From NCBI RefSeq assembly GCF_026004115.1, contig NZ_BPIM01000001.1, positions 2,956,501 to 3,020,500 on the forward strand: DNA of 64,000 nt, written 5' to 3'. The notes below the pieces were generated by a model. It was not told where the DNA came from. It was given only the letters and a program-made list of their open reading frames with translations, and searched no databases. Source of the DNA: Meiothermus sp. (GTDB lineage Bacteria > Deinococcota > Deinococci > Deinococcales > Thermaceae). The translations under genes and the position numbers were made by a program. Shown here in pieces: positions 49,534-51,254 of this stretch (its first letter is position 1; every line of letters begins with the position of its first letter).

Positions 49534-50496
<963 letters not shown>

Positions 50497-50564: not shown

Positions 50565-50972
50565 TTAGCGATTCGATCTACTGGCGTTGCCCTGGCTTCT
50601 GCGCTTGATTTCGTGTTCGCCTCCCCGCCATAACCGGAAAGCCGACTCCTCCCTGGCCCCAAAAGCCCTCGCCAAGCCCCGCAATACCGATTCGGGGTCT
50701 ACGTCGGGCTTATAAAAGTAAAGATCGAGGGCTGCCGAGGCGTCATCCTCGGGCCAGGTGTGAATCATGACCGCTGCAACGGGCGAAAGAATGGCTGCCG
50801 AGAGTCCCTGGGGGTAGAACTTATAAACCGTGGCCTGCACACTTCCAGGAGGCGCCCCCAGCTTGAAGACCGCGTCCTTGAGCGCAACCTCCACCAGCTT
50901 GGGATTTTCCAGCACTTCCAGGTTGCAGCCATAAATCTCGGCCACCCAGCGGCCCCCAGTCATCGCTGTCAC
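50565..50972 (-). CDS. speD: SAM decarboxylase (SpeD) homologue lacking the pyruvoyl-forming serine
   Basis: This 135-residue protein is clearly of the class 1B SpeD family (FYPQGLSAAI, MIHTWPEDD, AALDLYFYK). The usual self-cleavage motif E-S-H-x-x-I-H-T-W-P-E reads V65-A66-A67-V-M-I-H71-T-W-P-E, so the serine that becomes the pyruvoyl cofactor is Ala. The catalytic cysteine position after the conserved Asp is also an aromatic residue. It therefore cannot make pyruvoyl at the usual site. A prozyme-like partner of another SpeD is one explanation. A TATAGT box ends 5 bases before the GTG (leaderless). Confidence 0.85.
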   Translation of the reverse strand: MTAMTGGRWVAEIYGCNLEVLENPKLVEVALKDAVFKLGAPPGSVQATVYKFYPQGLSAAILSPVAAVMIHTWPEDDASAALDLYFYKPDVDPESVLRGLARAFGAREESAFRLWRGGEHEIKRRSQGNASRSNR

Positions 50973-50983
50973 GGCAAACTATA

Positions 50984-51254
50984 GTAACACATGGGGATAA
51001 GGCCGCAGATTCTAACCGTCGAGCAATCGCCTTTGGCCGAGCTATAGAGTTATCTTGATGGTATACGAAAAACTGCCGTACTCTGCTTCGAAACAAAGCC
51101 CCACCTCGAGGGGCCTCGAGTAAAAAAACTTCGCAGTGGTCTGGTAACCAGGAATTCGGTATGCACAGCAGTCCTTCTCGATGAGCTGCACATCGCAATT
51201 TTGGGCAGTCAACGTGCTTCAACACGTACCGCAAAATAAGTTACCTATGCACTA
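50984..51254. other. Intergenic stretch without recognisable genes
   Basis: About 270 bp between the speD promoter and a family A element. It contains a CTCGAGG-type palindrome at 51107-51120 but no convincing reading frame, RNA gene or terminator. Confidence 0.45.

Follow-up and report, generated by a model that had tools for sequence, protein, structure and literature searches.

In the Thermus lineage, the active-site residues of class 1b S-adenosylmethionine (SAM) decarboxylase (AdoMetDC, SpeD) are divided reciprocally between two separately encoded proteins, a dead SpeD whose gene adjoins speE and a live SpeD encoded elsewhere in the genome, and this division is the new point of the present analysis. 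The residue pattern suggests that both proteins probably join in an asymmetric heterodimer and build a single composite active site between them, which would feed the aminopropyltransferase SpeE. With somewhat less confidence, we favor the idea that bacteria of the Thermus lineage possess an obligate AdoMetDC heterodimer, in which two class 1b chains from separate genes share one site, and that this explains the published speD1 knockout.

The dead SpeD was encountered in a window of 64,000 nucleotides of Meiothermus sp. DNA, the whole stretch that was analysed, and the features concerned are listed in Table 1. Residue numbers E62, S63, H64, C83, F49, S55, H68, and E72 follow the SpeD from T. 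maritima. The predicted protein scored 76.1 bits with the AdoMet_dc domain family PF02675 (cut-off 25) and 53.8 bits with TIGR03330, which is below the equivalog cut-off of 75.65 bits, and sequence comparison with T. maritima SpeD gave an E value of 3e-16 and 36% identity. An AlphaFold2 model (pLDDT 83.8, pTM 0.77) had T. maritima AdoMetDC as its top fold match (Z 14.5). According to the original prediction, the E-S-H motif is replaced by V-A-A and the later cysteine by an aromatic residue while the family scaffold is kept, and both the alignment, in which the aromatic residue is Tyr, and the PF02675 match agree with this. Neither the self-cleaving serine (Ala/Gly in 53/53 orthologs) nor the catalytic Cys83 (Tyr/Phe in 53/53) by which class 1b members are recognized is present, and the pyruvoyl-forming serine of SpeDA/SpeDC, which are arginine or ornithine decarboxylases, is absent as well. 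With E62, S63, H64, and C83 all missing, the further claim that such a protein cannot be a normal SAM decarboxylase was borne out and, judged from its sequence, the dead SpeD is unable to self-process by the normal route.

Table 1. Features of the dead speD-speE region in the window.
Feature	Position	Strand	Basis
speE, polyamine aminopropyltransferase, directly downstream of dead SpeD	49534..50472	(-)	ORF, gene order
Dead class 1b SpeD homologue (SpeD1 type), 135 aa, GTG start	50565..50972	(-)	ORF, PF02675, TIGR03330, alignment, model
Y87 replacing catalytic Cys83	50712..50714	(-)	Ortholog column (Y 52, F 1 of 53)
Segment with kept residues F52, S58, H71, E75 (T. maritima F49, S55, H68, E72), predicted to act in trans	50748..50819	(-)	Each 53/53
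V65-A66-A67 replacing pyruvoyl-forming E62-S63-H64	50772..50780	(-)	Alignment to T. maritima SpeD
-10-like TANNAT just upstream of GTG start	50978..50986	(-)	Kept in Meiothermus; sequence comparison only

The orthologs of the dead SpeD comprise 53 distinct sequences in three families. Their column for the pyruvoyl-forming serine contains 50 Ala and 3 Gly and in no case Ser, the E62 column is Val in all of them and the C83 column contains Tyr in 52 and Phe in one, and F49, S55, H68, and E72 are each kept by 53/53. The dead gene shows a median pairwise dN/dS of 0.23 (379 pairs with dS below 1). As none of the 53 orthologs has an intact Ser, the altered motif is not a recent mutation, and the change common to 53/53 together with the median dN/dS of 0.23 rules out recent pseudogenization; the uniformity of the pattern and the same ratio also rule out chance or decay as the source of the dead motif. 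Recent duplication within the family was likewise rejected, because dead and live copies share 16% identity and fall into separate clades with a support of 0.99 each, and the sister grouping of the dead clade in the SpeD tree has a support of only 0.10. One genome-wide scan beyond the Deinococcota with narrow patterns returned no SpeD of the dead type outside the Thermaceae. The dead SpeD might still be a pyruvoyl enzyme if cleavage had shifted, for instance to the serine at position 60 (residue S63 of the protein in the window), which is Ser in 53/53 dead copies and hydrophobic elsewhere, but E62 (the base), H64, and C83 (the acid) are missing too, a proline follows S60 in 52/53 and we know of no precedent for a pyruvoyl cleavage site moving by three residues, all of which makes such a shift highly improbable.

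A second, intact speD was found in the same genome at G000:C1:534906-535241; its product has intact ESH and Cys residues and is the sole other SpeD there. In the class sample, 56 of the 57 genomes bearing the dead gene possess the pair of dead and live SpeD and the only one without the live copy (G042) is 65% complete, which means that both occur together in every adequately complete genome with the dead one. Two genomes of the Meiothermus group (G006 and G019, 92-100% complete) are devoid of both SpeD copies and of speE, a loss that is surprising for this group, and in genus g13, which judged from its gene content is probably Oceanithermus, the class 1b pair is absent and a class 1a SpeD (E. 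coli type) is present. Since G006 and G019 lack the pair as well as speE and g13 lacks the pair, retention or loss follows the pair and the pathway and not the dead gene alone. At the g13 loci (L143, L144, L145, and L150), the class 1a SpeD is encoded downstream of a divergent speE and has apparently replaced the class 1b pair.

For comparison, 31 class 1b SpeDs from other bacteria, one archaeon, phage contigs, and solved structures were used, and seven catalytic columns (F49, E62, S63, H64, H68, E72, and C83) do not vary among the 31. All 54 live copies retain E62, S63, H64, and C83, the same four residues that are lost in the dead copies, which in turn keep F49, S55, H68, and E72 (n=53). The E72 column of the 54 live copies is occupied by Lys (29), Ser (12), Glu (5), Ala (3), and by Asp, Gln, Leu, Arg, and His in one each, and position 72 ranks as the sixth most variable among 95 columns. 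Fitch changes at this position amount to 11 in the live clade on a tree length of 4.3, compared to 0 on 7.9 in the dead clade and 0 on 25.8 in the outgroup. Tyr occupies position 49 in 51/54 live copies, and position 55 is usually Thr, with Ala in six g14 sequences. Replacement of Ser55 by Thr was dropped as a candidate loss, as most other SpeDs (22/31) have Thr at this position. The losses in the dead copies are common to all three families and the drift of the live copies at position 72 is repeated and lineage-specific, an order of events that fits relaxed selection on the live copy. This relaxation is partial, as H68 is kept in 53/54 live copies (Gln in G053), Thr is usual at position 55 and five copies keep E72, and this partiality counts against a heterodimer.

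By motif spacing (F, Ser at +6, then His, and Glu at +4 from it), the F49, S55, H68, and E72 residues retained by the dead SpeD presumably correspond to F223, S229, H243, and E247 of the human enzyme. Eukaryotic AdoMetDC is a fusion of two class 1b units and carries no pyruvoyl in the C-terminal unit (PMC10407285, PMC5201418). In the human enzyme, S229, whose counterpart is S55 of T. maritima, is needed for activation and processing, and H243 acts in the second processing step (PMC3975893), whereas F223 and E247 position SAM (PMC3686867). Because the human C-terminal half is equivalent to the second protomer of the bacterial dimer, the matching residues F49, S55, H68, and E72 should act in trans on the pyruvoyl of a partner. 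In a comparison run with the dead model only, the dead SpeD aligned to residues 170-323 of human AdoMetDC, its C-terminal half, also in 1msv and 1jl0, which are unprocessed structures, and to residues 176-332 of the potato enzyme; most of the processed structures have the N-terminal half split between chains. Like the C-terminal half of the class 2 enzymes from human and potato, the dead SpeD is a half-sandwich without pyruvoyl, in which the cleavage site is absent and the F/S/H/E set is retained. The class 2 half gives human F223, S229, H243, and E247 to the active site of the other half, to which it is fused in one chain, whereas the dead SpeD is a separate ORF of 135 residues with a class 1b sequence, and the live copy lies at G000:C1:534906.

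From residue loss, residue retention, co-occurrence, gene order, and drift, all of which were directly observed, we infer that the dead SpeD, which does not cleave itself, pairs face to face with the self-cleaving live SpeD encoded elsewhere. The live chain would provide the cis set, consisting of E62, S63 (the future pyruvoyl), H64, and the acid C83, and would depend on the dead chain for the trans set, in which S55 and H68 would serve processing and F49 and E72 would hold SAM. Such a heterodimer would have one working composite site and would be the separate-gene equivalent of the fused class 2 halves known from plants, animals, and trypanosomes, and its product, decarboxylated SAM, would go to the SpeE encoded just downstream of the dead gene. 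Counting against this proposal, a S55A mutant of T. maritima SpeD still self-processes (PMC3975893), so that a partner need not be required for processing. The class 1b SpeD from T. maritima has the same fold as the dead SpeD but, unlike the proposed pair, is a homodimer that is symmetric and has two pyruvoyl sites, both self-made. A bacterial pair of live and dead class 1b units also occurs in the fusion of SpeD and degraded SpeD from Victivallis vadensis, which is an active AdoMetDC (PMC10407285); there, in contrast to the Thermus group, the pair is fused and its dead domain has been proposed to stem from SpeDC, an ornithine decarboxylase. Trypanosomatid deoxyhypusine synthase with its pseudoenzyme is reported as another case, in which a dead and an impaired paralogue complement each other in a shared active site (cited in PMC10981699), although its family is unrelated to AdoMetDC.

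The original prediction had considered a bacterial counterpart of the trypanosomatid prozyme, and this part stands, as does the existence of a live partner encoded in the same genome, whereas with regard to mechanism the residue pattern points to sharing of an active site. Such sharing is favored over a pure allosteric activator, because the dead copy keeps the residues of the pyruvoyl-free half and E72 of the live copy drifts. Prozyme-like allostery, by which the dead SpeD would bind the live SpeD and switch its conformation without giving active-site residues, is unlikely, as it leaves both the 53/53 conservation of F49, S55, H68, and E72 and the drift of E72 in live copies only unexplained and as, to our knowledge, class 1b SpeDs are without the autoinhibitory N-terminus of class 2. 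It draws on the resemblance of a dead paralogue, a live partner and the speD1-deletion phenotype to the prozyme (PMC5201418), which likewise accompanies a live AdoMetDC as a relative without catalytic activity and whose loss of function also cuts polyamines. The prozyme belongs, however, to class 2 and acts allosterically, in T. brucei by relieving autoinhibition (PMC5201418), whereas the dead SpeD is of class 1b and, with 135 residues, consists of a single half instead of the class 2 double-domain architecture. Leishmania donovani ADL, a prozyme-type copy, is reported to have retained no SAM-positioning residue (PMC3686867). A 2016 structural paper restricted the prozyme to trypanosomatids (PMC5201418), a statement with which a bacterial dead partner sharing an active site would contrast.

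As anticipated, the dead speD adjoins speE, with a gap of 92 bp on the same strand in the window, and at all 46 loci examined it lies directly upstream of speE on the same strand, the gap being 2-12 bp in Thermus. A TANNAT element is found a few bases 5' of the GTG start at Meiothermus and Thermus loci, and it is possible that it serves as promoter of a leaderless transcript of the dead speD-speE operon. The constant position upstream of speE would also suit a role as SpeE subunit. The dead SpeD would then be the unfused equivalent of the N-terminal domain of human spermine synthase, which has a SpeD-like fold and mediates dimerization (PMC11203672), and this domain was among the fold matches of the model (3c6k, Z 8.5, rmsd 3.5, 96 aligned residues). 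That domain is fused to its aminopropyltransferase whereas the dead SpeD is a separate ORF, and we consider a SpeE subunit distinctly unlikely, as the aminopropyltransferase from T. thermophilus is active in E. coli without dead SpeD (PMC11107197) and as the kept processing residues and the drift of the live SpeD would be left unexplained. Alternatively, a homodimer of the dead SpeD might bind the nucleoside via F49 and E72 as a sensor or carrier of SAM or decarboxylated SAM and regulate or channel decarboxylated SAM to SpeE, for which the retained SAM-positioning residues and the adjoining speE would speak; this is very unlikely, because S55 and H68, the processing residues, would not need keeping and E72 of the live copy would not be freed.

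In T. thermophilus, deletion of speD1 causes a lack of long and branched polyamines and of growth above 75 °C (reviewed in PMC6418473, PMC9957541). SpeD1 is TTC0473, SpeE is TTC0472, and SpeD2 is TTC1093 (PMC4021367); in a later paper the SAM decarboxylase is given as SpeD2 (PMC10981699). In every Thermus genome examined the SpeD adjoining speE is the dead one, and two primers for the speE region of strain HB8 (PMC9654539) match T. parvatiensis exactly, in the case of P2 over its speE-start core, and flank the dead gene. From the TTC0473/TTC0472 numbering, the Thermus gene order and the flanking primers, and thus from gene order rather than from the sequence of SpeD1 itself, speD1 is very probably the dead copy. 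Provided that this is the case, loss of speD1 very probably stops polyamine synthesis despite the remaining SpeD2. An alternative for the phenotype is that the knockout could be polar on speE, given the gap of 2-12 bp in Thermus. If the heterodimer is true, AdoMetDC has been split in bacteria into catalytic and complementing halves without fusion, an intermediate that is still unfused would be at hand to explain how the eukaryotic class 2 AdoMetDC arose, T. thermophilus SpeD1 would no longer be correctly annotated as a decarboxylase and the published requirement for speD1 at high temperature would obtain a mechanism.

Besides the pair, other altered SpeD homologues were noted. At one locus (L142 in G062) a remnant of a live-type SpeD has R-G-H in place of ESH and lacks the Cys, and at L138, L139, L141, L146, and L147 live-type SpeD homologues have Val, Arg, His, or Pro at the position of the catalytic Cys, with no close speE within the fetched stretch. 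In marine viral contigs (L153-L161 and L163), an intact SpeD has a further SpeD-like ORF next to it or nearby, in which T-S-N replaces ESH and the Cys is retained; its product may be an amino-acid decarboxylase of the phage, or the two may form another split pair.
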